From positions 558,001 through 622,000 of the forward strand of contig NZ_JAAGWZ010000001.1 in NCBI RefSeq assembly GCF_010686725.1: a stretch of 64,000 nt of DNA, in the 5' to 3' direction. Position numbers and translations under genes: made by a program. The stretch comes from Galbitalea soli (GTDB taxonomy: Bacteria > Actinomycetota > Actinomycetes > Actinomycetales > Microbacteriaceae). Position 1 is the stretch's first letter, and every line of letters starts with the position of its first letter. Shown here one piece after another: positions 27,587-35,988 of this stretch. Under the pieces are notes generated by a model, which did no database searches, was not told the origin of the DNA, and saw only the letters and a program-made list of their open reading frames with translations.

Positions 27587-29671
27587 TCAGACGTCGATGC
27601 GGGAGCGATTCAGCCCGTCGCCCGCGATGATGAATTCCTTGCGCGGGGCGACGTCGTTGCCCATGAGCAGTTCGAACACGCGCGCCGCGTCTTCCGCGTC
27701 TGAGACCCGCACTCGTCGAAGCGTGCGGTAGCGGCGATCCATCGTCGTCGACGCCAGCTGGTCGGCATCCATCTCGCCCAGCCCCTTGTAGCGCTGGATC
27801 GGATCCTGATACCGCTTGCCCTGCTTCTTCAAGCCGGCAAGCACACCGGTAAGCTCCGCCTCGGAATAGGTGTAGATGGTCTCGTTCGGCTTCGATCCCG
27901 GATTCATGACGACGACGCGGTGCAGCGGAGGCACCGCCGCGAACACCCGCCCCGCCTCGATCATCGGTCGCATGTACCGGAAGAACAGCGTGAGCAGCAG
28001 GGTACGGATGTGCGCACCGTCGACATCGGCATCACTCATCATGATGACCTTGCCGTAGCGCGCCTGATCGAGGTCGAAGCTTCGCCCGGAGCCGGCGCCG
28101 ATCACCTGGATGATCGACGCGCACTCCGCGTTCGACAGCATGTCGGACACGGACGCCTTCTGAACATTGAGGATCTTGCCGCGGATGGGAAGGAGCGCCT
28201 GGTACTCGCTGTCCCGAGCCAGCTTCGCGGTGCCGAGAGCGGAGTCTCCCTCCACGATCATCAATTCGCTGTTCAGCACGTCGTTCGAGCGGCAGTCCAC
28301 CAGCTTCGCCGGGAGCGAGGAGCTCTCGAGCGCGTTCTTCCGCCGCTGCGTCTCCTTGTGCGCCCTCGCGGAGATGCGTGATTTCATCTCCGCCACGATC
28401 TTGTCGAGCAGCAGGGCCGACTGCGCCTTGTCGTCGCGCTTGCTGGACGAGAAGCGCTCGCTCATCGCTGTCGAGACGACATTCGCGACGATCGTCCGCA
28501 CCGCCGGCGTACCGAGGATCTCCTTGGTCTGCCCCTCGAATTGCGGTTCGGGGAGTCGCACGGTGAGAACCGCCGTGAGACCCGCCAGGATGTCGTCCTT
28601 CTCGAGCTTGTCGGTGCCCACCTTGAGGCGGCGCGCGTTCTGCTCCACCTGGGAACGCAGGAACTTCATCATCCCCTGCTCGAAGCCCGTCTGGTGGGTA
28701 CCGCCCTTGGGCGTCGCGATGATATTCACGAAACTCTTGAACACGGTGTCGTAGCCGGTACCCCAGCGCAGTGCGATGTCGACCTCGCAACTGCGGGTGA
28801 GCTCGGTCGGAACCATCGCTCCCGTCTCCTGCAGCACCGGCACCGTCTCGGTGAACGTGCCCGACCCCTTGATGCGCCACGTATCGGTGAGCGCTTGATC
28901 GGGAGACAGGAAGTCGACGAACTCGCCGATCCCGCCCTCGTACTTGAAGAGCTGTGTCACCGGCTCGGGACCCCGCCGATCGGAGATCTCGATGCCGAGT
29001 CCCGACACCAGGAAGGCCGTCTGGCGGGCGCGCGCCATGAGTTCCTCCGTCTGGAAGTCGGCGCCCTTCGTGAAGATCTGGCGATCCGCCCAGTAGCGGA
29101 TGCGCGTGCCGGTCACCCCTCGGGCGACCTTGCCCACGACGCGCAGCTCGCTCCCCGACACGAACGGAGAGAACGGCGCGTCGGGCGTCGGATGCGCGGG
29201 ATCCACGTCGGCGAAGGTTCCGGGCTCGCCGCGATGGAAGGACATCGCGTACGTCTTTCCGTCGCGGTCGACCTGCACGTCCAGCCGCTCGGAGAGCGCG
29301 TTCACCACCGAGGCGCCCACGCCGTGCAAGCCACCGGACGCGGCATAGGAACCAGAGCCGAATTTTCCGCCCGCGTGAAGTTTGGTGAAGACGACCTCGA
29401 CGCCAGTCAAGCCGGTCTTCGGCTCGATGTCGACCGGAATCCCGCGGGCGCGGTCGTGGACCTCCACCGACTCGTCCGGGTGGAGAATGACGTCGATCAG
29501 GTCACCGTGGCCGCCGAGGGCCTCGTCGACGGAATTGTCGATGATCTCCCAGAGACAGTGCATGAGTCCACGCGCGTCCGTCGAGCCGATGTACATGCCC
29601 GGCCGCTTGCGAACGGCCTCGAGACCCTCCAGCACGGAGAGGTGGCGGGCGGAGTAGTCGGAACTCGGCAC
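27587..29671 (-). CDS. parE: DNA topoisomerase IV subunit B (ParE)
   Basis: A 694-residue ATPase subunit. The GHKL domain has EAVRKRPGMYIGSTDARGL and EIIDNSVDEALGGHGD. A transducer domain with QTGFEQGMMKF follows, then the TOPRIM domain with IVEGDSALGTAKLARD and MMSDADVDGAHIRTLLLT for magnesium. It forms a heterotetramer with ParC. The start is a GTG with TGGGAG upstream. parC and parE converge, an unusual layout because such pairs are more often in tandem. Confidence 0.92.
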   Translation of the reverse strand: MPSSDYSARHLSVLEGLEAVRKRPGMYIGSTDARGLMHCLWEIIDNSVDEALGGHGDLIDVILHPDESVEVHDRARGIPVDIEPKTGLTGVEVVFTKLHAGGKFGSGSYAASGGLHGVGASVVNALSERLDVQVDRDGKTYAMSFHRGEPGTFADVDPAHPTPDAPFSPFVSGSELRVVGKVARGVTGTRIRYWADRQIFTKGADFQTEELMARARQTAFLVSGLGIEISDRRGPEPVTQLFKYEGGIGEFVDFLSPDQALTDTWRIKGSGTFTETVPVLQETGAMVPTELTRSCEVDIALRWGTGYDTVFKSFVNIIATPKGGTHQTGFEQGMMKFLRSQVEQNARRLKVGTDKLEKDDILAGLTAVLTVRLPEPQFEGQTKEILGTPAVRTIVANVVSTAMSERFSSSKRDDKAQSALLLDKIVAEMKSRISARAHKETQRRKNALESSSLPAKLVDCRSNDVLNSELMIVEGDSALGTAKLARDSEYQALLPIRGKILNVQKASVSDMLSNAECASIIQVIGAGSGRSFDLDQARYGKVIMMSDADVDGAHIRTLLLTLFFRYMRPMIEAGRVFAAVPPLHRVVVMNPGSKPNETIYTYSEAELTGVLAGLKKQGKRYQDPIQRYKGLGEMDADQLASTTMDRRYRTLRRVRVSDAEDAARVFELLMGNDVAPRKEFIIAGDGLNRSRIDV

Positions 29672-29880: not shown

Positions 29881-30108
29881 ATGTCTCAGACCGCAACCGA
29901 GAACGTCACCGAGCTCGACTCCGTCTACGAACTGACCGCGCTCGACCGCTGCGACAGCTGCGGCGCTCAGGCCTACGTGCGCGTCACCATGGCAACCGGC
30001 GAACTGTACTTCTGCGCGCACCACGGTGCGGAGTTCAAGGAGAAGCTGTCGGCCACCGCGCTGGAGTGGCACGACGAGTCGGCCCGCCTCCTCACCGAGA
30101 AGGCCTGA
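29881..30108 (+). CDS. DUF7455 small zinc-ribbon-like protein
   Basis: A 75-residue protein typical of actinobacteria. Metal-site residues are visible as RCDSCGAQAYVRV and LYFCAHHGAEFKEKL. A strong AAGGAG ribosome site precedes the ATG. The function is unknown. It lies between topoisomerase IV and the gatD-murT-sigA unit, a position I recall from other actinobacteria. The 209-bp gap upstream (29672-29880) must hold its promoter and that of parE, but I see no clear consensus. Confidence 0.85.
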   Translation: MSQTATENVTELDSVYELTALDRCDSCGAQAYVRVTMATGELYFCAHHGAEFKEKLSATALEWHDESARLLTEKA

Positions 30109-30132: not shown

Positions 30133-30873
30133 TCAGGCGACGTCCGTCGCCGAGAGCCCGAGCCGCGTCGCAATCACACTGCGCGCGGCTCGCGCTGTTT
30201 CATCCACGAGTTCCGCGGGAGCAGTGCGTGCGGTGTATCCGGCACCGAGAACCTGGCTCAACAGATCGTCGGCAAGGGCGGGATTCTTGGCGAGCACCGG
30301 GCCGTGGAGGTGGGTGGCGATGACGGTGTCGTCGACGAGGCCCTCGGCGCGGTCATCCGAGCCGTTGCCGCGGCCGTAGACCACCCGGCCCAGGGGCACC
30401 GAGCCCGCGGGGAGCACGACGTCGCGAAGGTGGTTCTCGAAGCCGACCAATCGCCCGAACGGGGAGTCGACGACGAGGTCGTCGGTGACCCGCCCGCTCC
30501 CGGCGACCGCGCGCCCCGGGAGCAGCGCGAGTCCCTCGAGAGTCTGACCGTCGAGGTGGATGGTCTGGCCGAGCAACTCCCAGCCCGTGCCGATCGCGAG
30601 GATTCGCGTTCCCGCGTCCCGCCATCGGCGAAGCGTGGTGGCCGCGGGCCGAAGAGCGTCCAGGAGGGCCGGGAGTACCGGGTCGGTCGCCGACCCCACG
30701 ACGACGACGTCCGGCCGACCCTTGGGAACGGGGTCACCCAGTCTCCAGTCGACACGCTGCGCGGAGAATCCGGCCCAGCGTGCGCGCGCTGTCAGGACGA
30801 GCGCGTTCTCGGCGTCTCCGTTGACATTGGTCTGCTCTGCGAAAACGGTGAGAACGGTGAGATCGGCGGTCAT
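30133..30873 (-). CDS. gatD: GatD-like glutamine amidotransferase lacking the catalytic cysteine
   Basis: A 246-residue protein of the GATase_3/GatD family, translationally coupled to murT (ATGA overlap). In active GatD a cysteine (Cys94 in S. aureus) releases ammonia from glutamine for amidation of D-Glu in lipid II. Here the aligned segment reads ILAIGTGWELLG, with Gly95 in place of that cysteine, and the protein has no cysteine anywhere. The glycine-rich GGGSDRE-like segment is also changed (VVGSATDPV). The histidine motif THLHGPVLAKNP (His190) and SGRVTDDL are kept. The fold and complex with MurT are probably intact but glutaminase activity should be absent. Confidence 0.85.
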   Translation of the reverse strand: MTADLTVLTVFAEQTNVNGDAENALVLTARARWAGFSAQRVDWRLGDPVPKGRPDVVVVGSATDPVLPALLDALRPAATTLRRWRDAGTRILAIGTGWELLGQTIHLDGQTLEGLALLPGRAVAGSGRVTDDLVVDSPFGRLVGFENHLRDVVLPAGSVPLGRVVYGRGNGSDDRAEGLVDDTVIATHLHGPVLAKNPALADDLLSQVLGAGYTARTAPAELVDETARAARSVIATRLGLSATDVA

Positions 30874-32117
30874 ACGAGTCCCAGATGTGCGCGAGTCCGG
30901 CGCATCGAGTCTGCCGTGAAGATCACGGTCTTGATCCCGGTGCGGGGGGCAGGGAGAGCGAGGAAGGTGTCGATGGCGTGCGCGAGGTCGTGGTCGACGG
31001 CTCCCACCTCCACGCCCCGATAGCGCAGCTGAAGGGCGAGCTCGTCGGCCTTCGACCCGCTCACCACGGCGACCCGACCGAGCGAGGAGCTGTCGACGGG
31101 CCAGAAGTAGGAGGGATCCCGCACGTCTGACCCCATTGCGAAGAAGAGCTGGTCGAGACCCTTCTCGAGGCTGTCCACGTTGAGCTGATAGCTCGCGGGA
31201 TTCTGGACCAGCACGAATTCGACCTGCTGATCGCGCACGGTCACGATCTCGCCGCGGCCGAAGACCGGGGCGACGGCACTGATTGACGTGGTGGCCCGCT
31301 CGGCATCGAAGTCAGCACCGAGTACGGCGCGGGCGCCCGCCAGGGCCGCGGCGGCATCGACCGCGTAGTGCGTGCCACGGGCGGGCAAGGTGATCGGATG
31401 CTCGCCCCCGGCGATACTGAGTCGCGCCGACCGGCCATCGACCTCGGTCACGACCGTGCCGTCCCGCTGGGCGAGGCGCGTCGCCGCGGTCTGCGCGTAT
31501 CCGAGGCCGCGGGGATTCGCCGCGAGCACGCCCTGGCTCACTCCGTACGGGGCGATGACGGTACCCGGCGCGCGGTGCGCGGCCAGCTCGAGCAGCATCG
31601 CGTCATCGGCGTTGATGACGAGCGAGCCCGTGGCGCGAGAGGCGATCGTGCCGAGCATGCCCGCCACCTTCTCGGAGTCGTGAAAGCGATCGATCTGGTC
31701 GGTCATGACGTTGGTGAGGACGACGACGCGCGGAGCCAATTGCGGCGCGATGAGCGCGCCGTGGCCCTCGTCCATCTCCAGCACGGCGATGTCTGCGAGG
31801 ATCCGGCCCCGCAGATCGACGCGTTCGAGCAGAGCGCTCGTCAATCCCTGACTGATATTCGCGGTCGAGGGATTGGTGAACACGCGAAGCCCGTGCGCCT
31901 CGAGCACGGCGACCAGCATCTTCGTCGTCGTGGACTTGCCGCTCGACCCCGACACGATTACGAGGCCCTGCGGAAAGCCGGCGAGCGTCGCGCTCAGGAA
32001 CCGGGGCGCGAGTCGATTGACGACCAGCCCGGGCACCGCGGATCCGCCGCCGCGCTTACGCAGACGGGCCGCGACTCGGACCAGCCGTCCGATGAGGATG
32101 GCGGGGGCGAACGCCAC
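30870..32117 (-). CDS. murT: MurT-like Mur ligase family protein, without zinc ribbon
   Basis: A 415-residue Mur ligase homologue with a C-terminal DUF1727 domain. The P-loop is VSGSSGKSTTTKML. The central domain has EMDEGHGALIA, TNVMTDQIDRF and LVINADDAML. Classical MurT has a four-cysteine zinc ribbon after this point. Here the segment (about residues 185-235) has none and the whole protein is cysteine-free. The DUF1727 region has VLVQNPASYQLN and MGSDVRDPSYFWPVDSS, a strongly altered form of the usual motif. The start is a GTG only 3 bp after sigA. It probably activates the D-Glu carboxyl of lipid II, but the amine donor may not be ammonia. Confidence 0.85.
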   Translation of the reverse strand: MAFAPAILIGRLVRVAARLRKRGGGSAVPGLVVNRLAPRFLSATLAGFPQGLVIVSGSSGKSTTTKMLVAVLEAHGLRVFTNPSTANISQGLTSALLERVDLRGRILADIAVLEMDEGHGALIAPQLAPRVVVLTNVMTDQIDRFHDSEKVAGMLGTIASRATGSLVINADDAMLLELAAHRAPGTVIAPYGVSQGVLAANPRGLGYAQTAATRLAQRDGTVVTEVDGRSARLSIAGGEHPITLPARGTHYAVDAAAALAGARAVLGADFDAERATTSISAVAPVFGRGEIVTVRDQQVEFVLVQNPASYQLNVDSLEKGLDQLFFAMGSDVRDPSYFWPVDSSSLGRVAVVSGSKADELALQLRYRGVEVGAVDHDLAHAIDTFLALPAPRTGIKTVIFTADSMRRTRAHLGLV

Positions 32118-32120
32118 GTC

Positions 32121-33470
32121 CTACTCGAGGTAGTCGCGGAGCGACTGCGACCGGGACGGGTGACGGAGCTTCGCCATCGTCTTCGACTCGATCTGACGGA
32201 TGCGCTCGCGCGTCACCCCGAAGGTGTCACCGATCTGGTCGAGTGTCTTCGGCATACCGTCACCCAGCCCGAAGCGCATGCGGATAACGCCCGCTTCGCG
32301 CTCGGACAGTGAATCGAGCAGAGACTCGAGCTGCTTCTGCAGCATCGTGAACCCCACCGCATCGGCCGGGACAACAGCCTCGGTGTCCTCGATGAGGTCA
32401 CCGAACTCGCTGTCGCCGTCTTCGCCGAGCGGCGTGTGCAGCGAGATCGGCTCACGACCGTACTTCTGAACCTCGATGACCTTCTCAGGCGTCATGTCGA
32501 GCTCACGGCTCAACTCCTCCGGGGTGGGCTCGCGGCCCAGGTCCTGAAGCATCTGGCGCTGGACGCGGGCGAGCTTGTTGATGACCTCGACCATGTGGAC
32601 CGGAATGCGGATGGTGCGCGCCTGGTCGGCCATCGCACGCGTGATCGCCTGCCGGATCCACCAGGTCGCGTAGGTGGAGAACTTGAATCCCTTGGTGTAG
32701 TCGAACTTCTCGACGGCACGAATGAGGCCGAGGTTGCCCTCCTGGATTAGGTCGAGGAACTGCATGCCGCGGCCGGTGTAACGCTTCGCGAGCGAGACCA
32801 CGAGGCGGAGGTTCGCGCCGAGCAGATGACTCTTGGCGCGCTGGCCATCCTTCGCGACCCAGAGCAGCTCGCGACCGAGGGACGACTTGCGTTCGGCCTC
32901 CGACATCTGCGAGAGCTTGTCCTCGGCGAAGAGTCCCGCCTCGATGCGCATGGCGAGCTCGACCTCTTCGGCGGCGTTGAGGAGAGCGACCTTGCCGATC
33001 TGCTTGAGGTAGTCCTTGACCGGGTCGGCGGTGGCGCCGGTGATGGCGCTCGAGTAGACCGGCACCTCGTCGTCGTCGTCCACGAGGGAGAGAACGAGCG
33101 CGCCGGAGGGGAGCTCCTCCTCGAGCTTCGGCTTCGCATCCTCGTCGTCGTCATCGACGACCGTGTCGTCGACGACCACGTCTTTGACGGCGTCGTCATC
33201 GACCACGTCGACCTCAACGTCAACGTCGACGACGACCGCCTCGACGTCGTCGTCCAGTTCCTCGTCGACCTCGTCGACCTCGTCATCGGTGGCCGCGCCA
33301 CGCTTGGCGCGCGTCGGTGCCTTGGCAGCGGGCGCCTTGGCGGCAGGTGCCTTGGCGGCGGGCGCCTTGGCGGCGGGCTTCGCAGCGCGCGCCTTCGGGG
33401 CAGCGGGGGCGGTGGGGTCGACGCTGACCTCATCCGATTCGAGGGTTGCAGTCTTGGTCCGGGTAGCCAT
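32121..33470 (-). CDS. sigA: principal RNA polymerase sigma factor
   Basis: A 449-residue group 1 sigma-70 factor. After an alanine/lysine-rich and then very acidic N-terminus (about residues 15-145) come region 1.2 ([21 protein letters not shown]), region 2 ([20 protein letters not shown] and [20 protein letters not shown]), region 3 and region 4 ([20 protein letters not shown]). The ATG at 33470 is chosen because AAAGG lies at good spacing. An upstream in-frame ATG lacks this. It is the first gene of a sigA-murT-gatD unit. Confidence 0.95.
33316..33375 (-). repeat. four 15-bp tandem repeats in sigA
   Basis: Four near-identical 15-bp units, of the form GGYGCCTTGGCRGCR on the plus strand, encode repeated Ala-Ala-Lys-Ala-Pro in the sigma factor N-terminus. 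Such repeats can change in number by slippage. Confidence 0.85.
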
Positions 33471-33667
33471 GAGTGACACCTTTCCGGTTTGTTTCGTGCG
33501 GGTTACCTGCACGCGGGCACAACTAAGACCCTTGTCAAGTCGGGGGGCCCGACACGATGAACGCGTCAGAGGCCGGAACGACGGGACCGGGTCTCAGACT
33601 TAATTATTGCACGCTTCCTCGACAAGTCTTGCCAAAGTGCGTCGTGGTGGGCTATTAGGCCGCCACG

Positions 33668-35067: not shown

Positions 35068-35988
35068 TCAGATCGACGGTGTGTCGTCGTCGCGCCGCAT
35101 CGCCAGGAAGTTCTGCAGCTCGGCGGCGATCGCGTCGGCGGTCGGCAATTCGCCGTCCTCGTCGGTCAGCGGCGAGCGCAGAGGATTGTCGAGCATGTAG
35201 CTGTCGTGGCGCTCCTCGAGCGTGCTGACGAGTTTCGCGAGCTCCGGGTTGTTCTGCACCTGGTCATCGATCTTGACGAGGAACTCGCGTCCCGACTCGC
35301 GCAGCGCGTCGGTCGGGAAGATCAGGCCCGTCGCTGCACTCACGCTCTCCAGCGCGGCGACCGCGGCGAGCGGGAACTCGGTGTCTCCCAGGTAGTGCGG
35401 GATCAACAGCACGAATCCCGCCGTGGGGTGATCGAGCTGCTGCAGCCGGTATTCGACGAGGTGGAGCGCGTTGGCCGGCGCCTGGGTCTGCGGCTTCCAC
35501 ACCGACAGCGTCTCGGTGAGCTCCGAGCGATTGCCGCTCACCGTCACGCCGATCGGCCGCGTGTGCGGGACCGGCATCGGGATGGCATGCACCCAGGTCG
35601 TCGACTTCACGTCGAAACGGGCGACGAGATCGAGGATCGCCGCGGTGAATCGCTCCCATTTGAAGTCCGGTTCGTAGCCGGTGAGGAGCAGGAACGGCTG
35701 ACCCACTTCATCCTGCGCGAGCGACAGCGCGAGCTGAGACGGGGTGAAGTCGGCCAGGTGGTCGCGATCGAAGTAGATGATCGGGCGTCGCGCCCGGTAG
35801 TCGAGCAGTTCGTCGTTGTCGAAGCGCGCGACGATGTGGTGATCGAGCGAATCGATGAGGTAGTCGTTGAACTGCGACACGGCCGACCCCGCGTCGGCGA
35901 AACCGGTCAGGCCGGCGACGAGGGGCAACCCGCGGGGCACCTCATCAGGGTCGACAAGCAGGTCGTAGAGACCATCGGGATCGCGCAT
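35068..35988 (-). CDS. PAC2-family protein
   Basis: A 306-residue protein of the PAC2 (proteasome assembly chaperone-like) family. Visible features are PLVAGLTGFADAGSAVSQF, RRPIIYFDRDHLADF, FLLLTGYEPDFKWERF and HAIPMPVPHTRP. The family is widespread in actinobacteria but its function there is not settled. The ATG has TAGAGT 6 bp upstream on the minus strand. It is divergent from pepA. Confidence 0.87.
   Translation of the reverse strand: MRDPDGLYDLLVDPDEVPRGLPLVAGLTGFADAGSAVSQFNDYLIDSLDHHIVARFDNDELLDYRARRPIIYFDRDHLADFTPSQLALSLAQDEVGQPFLLLTGYEPDFKWERFTAAILDLVARFDVKSTTWVHAIPMPVPHTRPIGVTVSGNRSELTETLSVWKPQTQAPANALHLVEYRLQQLDHPTAGFVLLIPHYLGDTEFPLAAVAALESVSAATGLIFPTDALRESGREFLVKIDDQVQNNPELAKLVSTLEERHDSYMLDNPLRSPLTDEDGELPTADAIAAELQNFLAMRRDDDTPSI

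Follow-up and report, generated by a model that had tools for sequence, protein, structure and literature searches.

The window, that is, the whole 64,000-nucleotide stretch analysed here, carries directly downstream of sigA (32121–33512, minus strand) an operon of two genes on the same strand that encode homologues of MurT (vMurT; 415 amino acids, 30870–32117) and GatD (vGatD; 246 amino acids, 30133–30873). Translation of vMurT starts 3 bp past the sigA stop, and the two genes overlap in an ATGA (30870–30873), as a preliminary description of the locus had stated. sigA is the 5′ border of a region of variable content, referred to here as the slot. Its 3′ border is a gene for a small protein that we take to be of the DUF7455 type (29881–30108, plus strand), convergent with gatD. 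The constant flanks are a DNA topoisomerase subunit B gene (parE-like; 27587–29671, minus strand) downstream and a gene for a presumed PAC2-family protein (35068–35988, minus strand) upstream.

The pair was identified by alignment and by its Pfam domains (Mur_ligase_M, MurT_C and GATase_3), and alignment and structure matches show that it is clearly related to the MurT/GatD complexes of Staphylococcus aureus, Streptococcus pneumoniae and Streptococcus pyogenes. Its scores are far from the NCBIfam cut-offs for isoglutaminyl-synthase equivalogs (82.7 of 800 bits and 93.5 of 450 bits). The AlphaFold2 model of vGatD (pLDDT 95.6) has S. aureus GatD (6gs2_A) as its best PDB match, with a TM-score of 0.84; the matches of the predicted vMurT structure (pLDDT 90.1) also include MurF. 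With the lipid II isoglutaminyl synthases of S. aureus and S. pneumoniae, which are the closest solved structures, the pair shares the fold, the overlapping genes, the HGP motif of GatD and three features of the ligase subunit. These are the P-loop (GSSGKST, 31929–31949), Glu114 (31776–31778), equivalent to the Mg ligand Glu108 of S. aureus, and Asp334 (31116–31118), equivalent to Asp349 of S. aureus MurT.

The glutaminase centre is different. A direct count finds no cysteine in either protein, and Gly95 of vGatD (codon 30589–30591), within the former nucleophile elbow ILAIGTGWELLG (30568–30603), aligns with the catalytic cysteine of canonical GatD (Cys94 in S. aureus). The preliminary description, which had pointed out both features, also counted the catalytic histidine of GatD among the retained residues. 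This holds in the window, where His190 in the THLHGP motif (30298–30315) aligns with S. aureus His189, but only 66% of the vGatD clade keep the histidine. A MurT_C search of the window genome (3.04 Mb, 99.98% complete) finds this locus only (n = 1) and no second MurT, and thus no cysteine-containing MurT/GatD of the kind that would speak against repurposing.

Loss of the glutaminase nucleophile in Microbacteriaceae

Because some variants escape a Pfam MurT_C search, and its results mix three MurT types, we used an alignment search to assign the types in 101 Microbacteriaceae genomes (the window genome and 100 others) from 84 genera. The variant (v) type of the window is present in 61 genomes, nearly always at the same place. 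Canonical, cysteine-containing MurT/GatD occurs in 14; 4 genomes have a third type (t), and MurT is absent from 19. Variant and canonical pairs occur together in 2 of the 61 v genomes (G054 and G066).

When all loci are pooled, the nucleophile cysteine is found in none of 128 vGatD sequences, which have Gly, Ala, Ser, Asn or Thr instead, and in none of 12 tGatD sequences (His or Asn); it is present in all 39 canonical GatD sequences, 19 of which are from other families of the order. The absence of cysteine is therefore not a matter of chance, and no such loss was seen in those other families. A second site follows the same division: the position of S. pneumoniae GatD Tyr30, which plugs the ammonia channel (PMC6085368), holds a tyrosine in 100% of canonical sequences and an asparagine in 79% of vGatD sequences. 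The ligase subunit has been kept, in that the lysine of the P-loop, a motif that the preliminary description listed as intact, and the Mg-binding glutamate are each conserved in 127 of 127 aligned vMurT sequences and the Asp349 equivalent in 126 of 127. Invariant ligase residues beside a cysteine that is gone from 128 of 128 partners suggest that the ligase, and not the glutaminase, is under selection. The t type has lost the Asp349 equivalent as well. We observed it in the same slot with a cysteine-rich MurT (L062:5357-7476, L067:5342-7476, L073:4923-7102 and L142); its GatD has HN at the nucleophile and Ile or Leu at the catalytic histidine position.

In a maximum-likelihood tree, v (support 98/97) is the sister of the cysteine-containing canonical clade and t (100/99) stands apart from both; the AU test rejects a topology in which v and t form one group (P = 0.008). 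Canonical MurT models score t at 171.8 bits versus 82.7 bits for v. The case for separate losses of the glutaminase in v and t appears strong but, in a tree with long branches, not final. Outside the family, no v-type MurT was found in 248 genomes of the order and 297 of the class (score gap of 532 versus 392 bits), so that within these samples the variant is confined to Microbacteriaceae.

The preliminary description had also treated the missing zinc ribbon of MurT as special. We dropped this argument, as cysteine-active canonical MurT proteins from the same order likewise contain just 0–3 cysteines. The zinc-binding cysteine tetrad is present in some Actinobacteria only (PMC6085368, PMC6113224).

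Mutually exclusive candidate ligases between sigA and parE

We compared the region PAC2–MFS–sigA–slot–DUF7455–parE across the family genomes and 80 named records, fetching the named loci with the PAC2-family protein as bait. Among 150 loci, the slot contains v in 93, a protein similar to CofE (coenzyme F420-0:γ-glutamyl ligase) in 34, t in 6 and no ligase in 17; two ligases never occur together. About one-fifth of the family genomes have a CofE-like protein or a different cysteine-free MurT/GatD in place of v, and the slot is empty in a minority. This setting, like the missing nucleophile, the replaced channel-plug tyrosine and the position as a sister clade, distinguishes v from the known isoglutaminyl synthases: it lies in the sigA slot and alternates with CofE-like ligases.

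The CofE-like slot protein belongs to the family of CofE (F420_ligase, PF01996; 3 × 10−13) but scores much too low to count as a CofE equivalog (34.9 bits against a cut-off of 180.65). It further differs from CofE in adjoining sigA and in being fused to AsnB in other families. A search of solved structures with this protein returned no match. In the reaction of CofE itself, an amino acid is attached to a carboxylate, and the two families that replace one another in the slot share their chemistry, in which a nucleotide drives the conversion of a carboxylate into an amide.

When the ligase of each locus is mapped onto a tree of the flanking genes, it changes 29 times. Among 19 independent pairs, loss of MurT coincides with gain of the CofE-like gene in 15.5 and both change in the same direction in 0 (P ≈ 3 × 10−5), which corresponds to about 16–19 independent swaps; the tree is a FastTree reconstruction from three proteins, which may themselves be transferred along with the slot, and some of the genomes are MAGs. 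Swaps between v and CofE occur inside single genera (g7, g9, g13, g79 and g85), and a swap between v and t is found within the genus of the window genome. The exclusion extends to whole genomes: a CofE-like protein is present in 15 of the 19 family genomes that have no MurT, and it accompanies a MurT/GatD-type pair in one genome only (G053). All 12 of the Microbacteriaceae checked that have a cysteine-containing pair alone lack a ligase between sigA and DUF7455/parE, usually with less than 300 bp between these genes. Amide supply and a filled slot are thus mutually exclusive, except in G054 and G066. Judged from this exclusion over 150 loci and over whole genomes, the slot ligases appear to be functionally equivalent, in the sense of genetic equivalence only.

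Some loci depart from the common arrangement. The G053 genome has MurT-like, cysteine-free GatD-like and CofE-like genes in one operon away from the slot (L098:5607-8402), and its slot contains only a pair of racemase-like genes. Three near-complete genomes (G019, G051 and G062; loci L082, L087 and L089) have an empty slot and neither MurT nor a CofE-like protein, and may use another route or have a different wall. Unrelated genes, as judged from their sequences, are found in some slots, such as an amino-acid ABC transporter (G049) and a MurJ/flippase-like membrane protein (L068). At Subtercola and related loci (L107, L110, L112, L191, L193 and L208), the orientation of parE and DUF7455 is reversed with respect to sigA–murT–gatD, which indicates that the right border of the slot has been rearranged.

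In three other families, the CofE-like domain follows GATase_7 and Asn_synthase domains in fusion proteins of 805–933 amino acids (for example L287:2685-5429, L288:4458-7199, L290:4911-7583 and L305:5184-7982, all from other Actinomycetales families). We take GATase_7 plus Asn_synthase to be the architecture of the AsnB/LtsA-type peptidoglycan amidotransferases. The AsnB part of the fusion shares with these both the architecture and the N-terminal MCGI, which is present in most fusions (one has MSGI, L289, and one lacks the motif). Unlike the AsnB/LtsA type, the fusion adds a CofE-like domain. The fusion and MurT/GatD exclude each other in all three families (f12, 12 versus 5; f18, 5 versus 12; f6, 2 versus 14; overlap 0), and the fusion is probably an undescribed alternative D-Glu amidase. 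The CofE-like protein of the Microbacteriaceae cassette lacks the GATase_7 and Asn_synthase module. The simplest reading would be that AsnB–CofE and MurT/GatD are alternative D-Glu amidases outside Microbacteriaceae, and that within this family both CofE and MurT/GatD lost the part that supplies nitrogen and may have become ligases for another amine.

The ligases have optional neighbours in the slot, namely an ATP-grasp protein (ATPgrasp_ST) and a pair of alanine-racemase-like proteins, AlrA and AlrB. The ATP-grasp gene is associated with CofE (13.8 of 16; P ≈ 0.001), and the racemase pair occurs at 26 of 100 v loci and 13 of 38 CofE loci, counted before removal of duplicates (for example at L063:3272-5292, L069:4371-6361, L094:2498-4434 and L150:15776-17733). 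AlrA keeps the PLP-lysine motif (VVKxxAYGHG) but not the GVSYGYTYR segment, which contains the catalytic tyrosine; AlrB has lost the lysine and keeps that segment. As the active site of alanine racemase combines the lysine of one subunit with the tyrosine of the other, AlrA and AlrB are predicted to form an obligate heterodimer with one active site. The window genome has neither the heterodimeric racemase, its only racemase of this kind being an ordinary alr that neighbours a glmS-like gene, nor an EctB homologue. EctB-type diaminobutyrate (Dab) transaminase genes are found in just 2 cassettes, and EctB does not correlate with the v type (17 of 100 genomes) and was rejected as a marker.

Wall types of the carriers and a candidate bridge ligase

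In group-B walls, the α-carboxyl of D-Glu bears the interpeptide bridge. These walls have reportedly been known for more than 50 years, since Schleifer and Kandler in 1972, and we found no paper that names the enzyme joining the bridge to this carboxyl; a literature search for CofE or MurT together with group-B peptidoglycan returned nothing relevant. For named v carriers, the literature describes group-B walls. According to the genus descriptions, from which all wall types used here are taken, these are Glaciihabitans (Dab, B10), Cryobacterium (Dab, B2γ), Frigoribacterium (D-Lys, B2β) and Compostimonas (L-Dab, B1) (PMC7033078), and Subtercola (Dab, B2γ) (PMC5945732). CofE and ATP-grasp are found in Salinibacterium amurskyense and its relatives (genus with Lys/Orn, type B), and together with the racemase in the slot of Lacisediminihabitans (Dab, reported as B1α). 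Compostimonas (v) and Lacisediminihabitans (CofE) fit poorly to any simple rule by diamino acid or by B1 and B2, and with so few named wall types a strict rule that v means B2 and CofE means B1 is suggestive only. L-Lys, D-Orn and Dab vary within Microbacterium (PMC10757982), and bridge and stem vary together in the family (PMC7033078, PMC10757982). An attractive candidate rule would be that one-residue bridges need one ligase (v) and two-residue bridges need two (CofE and ATP-grasp).

One further v carrier is a 1,760,810-bp genome with vMurT/vGatD and the racemase pair (L231:3693-6922), which we take to be Pontimonas salivibrio. The genome paper of this species reports direct cross-links and contains no bridge enzymology (PMC6106888).

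We consider it probable that the v- and t-type MurT/GatD pairs and the CofE-like proteins are alternative ligases that join a bridge amino acid to the α-carboxyl of D-Glu in group-B peptidoglycan. On this reading, vMurT/vGatD would be a converted lipid II isoglutaminyl synthase in which vMurT, like canonical MurT, binds ATP and activates the α-carboxyl of D-Glu in the lipid-linked precursor as an acyl phosphate. vGatD would have lost ammonia production and been kept as a partner, probably shaping the site at which the amine enters. Because CofE adds an amino acid and the group-B bridge sits on the D-Glu α-carboxyl, we infer that the most likely amine is the amino acid with which the bridge begins (in the window organism, D-Dab or another diamino acid is probable), in which case the product would bear a cross-bridge and not an amide. 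The same job would be done elsewhere in the family by type t or the CofE-like ligase at the same slot; the ATP-grasp ligase would perhaps add a second bridge residue and the split racemase would supply the D-isomer. Facts that speak against this reading are the two v genomes with an additional canonical pair, the three genomes with neither ligase, the poor fit of Compostimonas and Lacisediminihabitans to a simple wall rule, the rarity of EctB in the cassettes, and the gene content of the window genome, whose ordinary alr and lack of EctB do not account for D-Dab. The chemistry proposed for vMurT, acyl phosphate plus amino acid, is that of the Mur ligases MurC–F, and its model also matches MurF. 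MurC–F differ in that their substrates are UDP-linked precursors and their N-terminal domain is complete, whereas that of MurT is truncated (PMC6113224).

The preliminary description had proposed that the pair ligates an amino acid or bridge unit in place of ammonia, and the locus lends this strong indirect support through swappable non-homologous ligases, racemase and ATP-grasp genes, and nitrogen-supply modules lost in parallel from both ligase families. Its further suggestion of a new route to B-type cross-links would apply to the pair as one of several interchangeable solutions, and not universally in the family. It seems fairly likely, if somewhat less so than the ligase role itself, that the sigA–parE slot is the genetic determinant of group-B bridges, with three convergent, interchangeable ligases and with a racemase and an ATP-grasp ligase that supply or extend the bridge residue.

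Human carbamoyl phosphate synthetase I keeps its glutaminase fold without the nucleophile cysteine and retains ammonia as its substrate, and vMurT/vGatD could likewise still amidate D-Glu, using free ammonia. The retained fold of vGatD fits this precedent, and at pH 8.5 S. aureus MurT/GatD can take ammonia as a direct substrate, as long as GatD is there (PMC6085368). Nevertheless, published wall types place carriers in group B, in which the bridge occupies the carboxyl in question. The slot is also shared with a family of amino-acid ligases and with racemase and ATP-grasp genes, it is empty in genomes that have canonical pairs only, and two lineages appear to have lost the glutaminase independently in the same slot. 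We therefore regard ammonia-dependent amidation as unlikely and favour a different amine for vMurT/vGatD. Somewhat more doubtful is the idea that the pair and the CofE-like protein form a different amide in group-B walls, such as that of a second bridge residue or a modification at position 1 or 3. The acceptor is deduced from MurT descent only, and bridge and stem do co-vary in the family (PMC7033078, PMC10757982), but this ancestry and the conserved surroundings of KN[PA], GRGE and D334 point to the same acceptor, and outside Microbacteriaceae the canonical pairs that amidate D-Glu and the CofE-like domain exclude each other.

Unrelated genes in some slots (G049 and L068) would fit a permissive site near sigA into which genes are inserted by chance, with no shared function behind the mutual exclusion. 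This is very improbable, as the exclusion is genome-wide and, outside the slot, recurs in three other families, and the major occupants are all amide ligases or amino-acid racemases. A decaying or regulatory pseudo-enzyme with no ligase activity, suggested by the lost catalytic residues of GatD and the low NCBIfam scores, is hardly credible for a pair that is present in 61 of 101 family genomes, nearly all at the same place, with invariant P-loop lysine, Mg-binding glutamate and aspartate, and that is kept in a genome of about 0.93 Mb (L099).

Under the preferred reading of the slot proteins as bridge ligases, the slot would offer concrete candidate genes for the group-B bridge step, a natural swap experiment with about 16–19 repeats, and a predictor of wall type from genome sequence for a family that includes plant pathogens (Clavibacter). 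Amidotransferases would have turned into amino-acid ligases by loss of nitrogen supply in three lineages, twice by loss of the cysteine and once by loss of a module. The genome of about 0.93 Mb (927,303 bp), which we presume to be Tropheryma whipplei Twist, retains vMurT/vGatD together with the racemase pair (L099:4822-6776). Retention in so reduced a genome suggests that the wall step, of the group-B type, is essential and, if the assignment is correct, the predictor would cover a human pathogen too.
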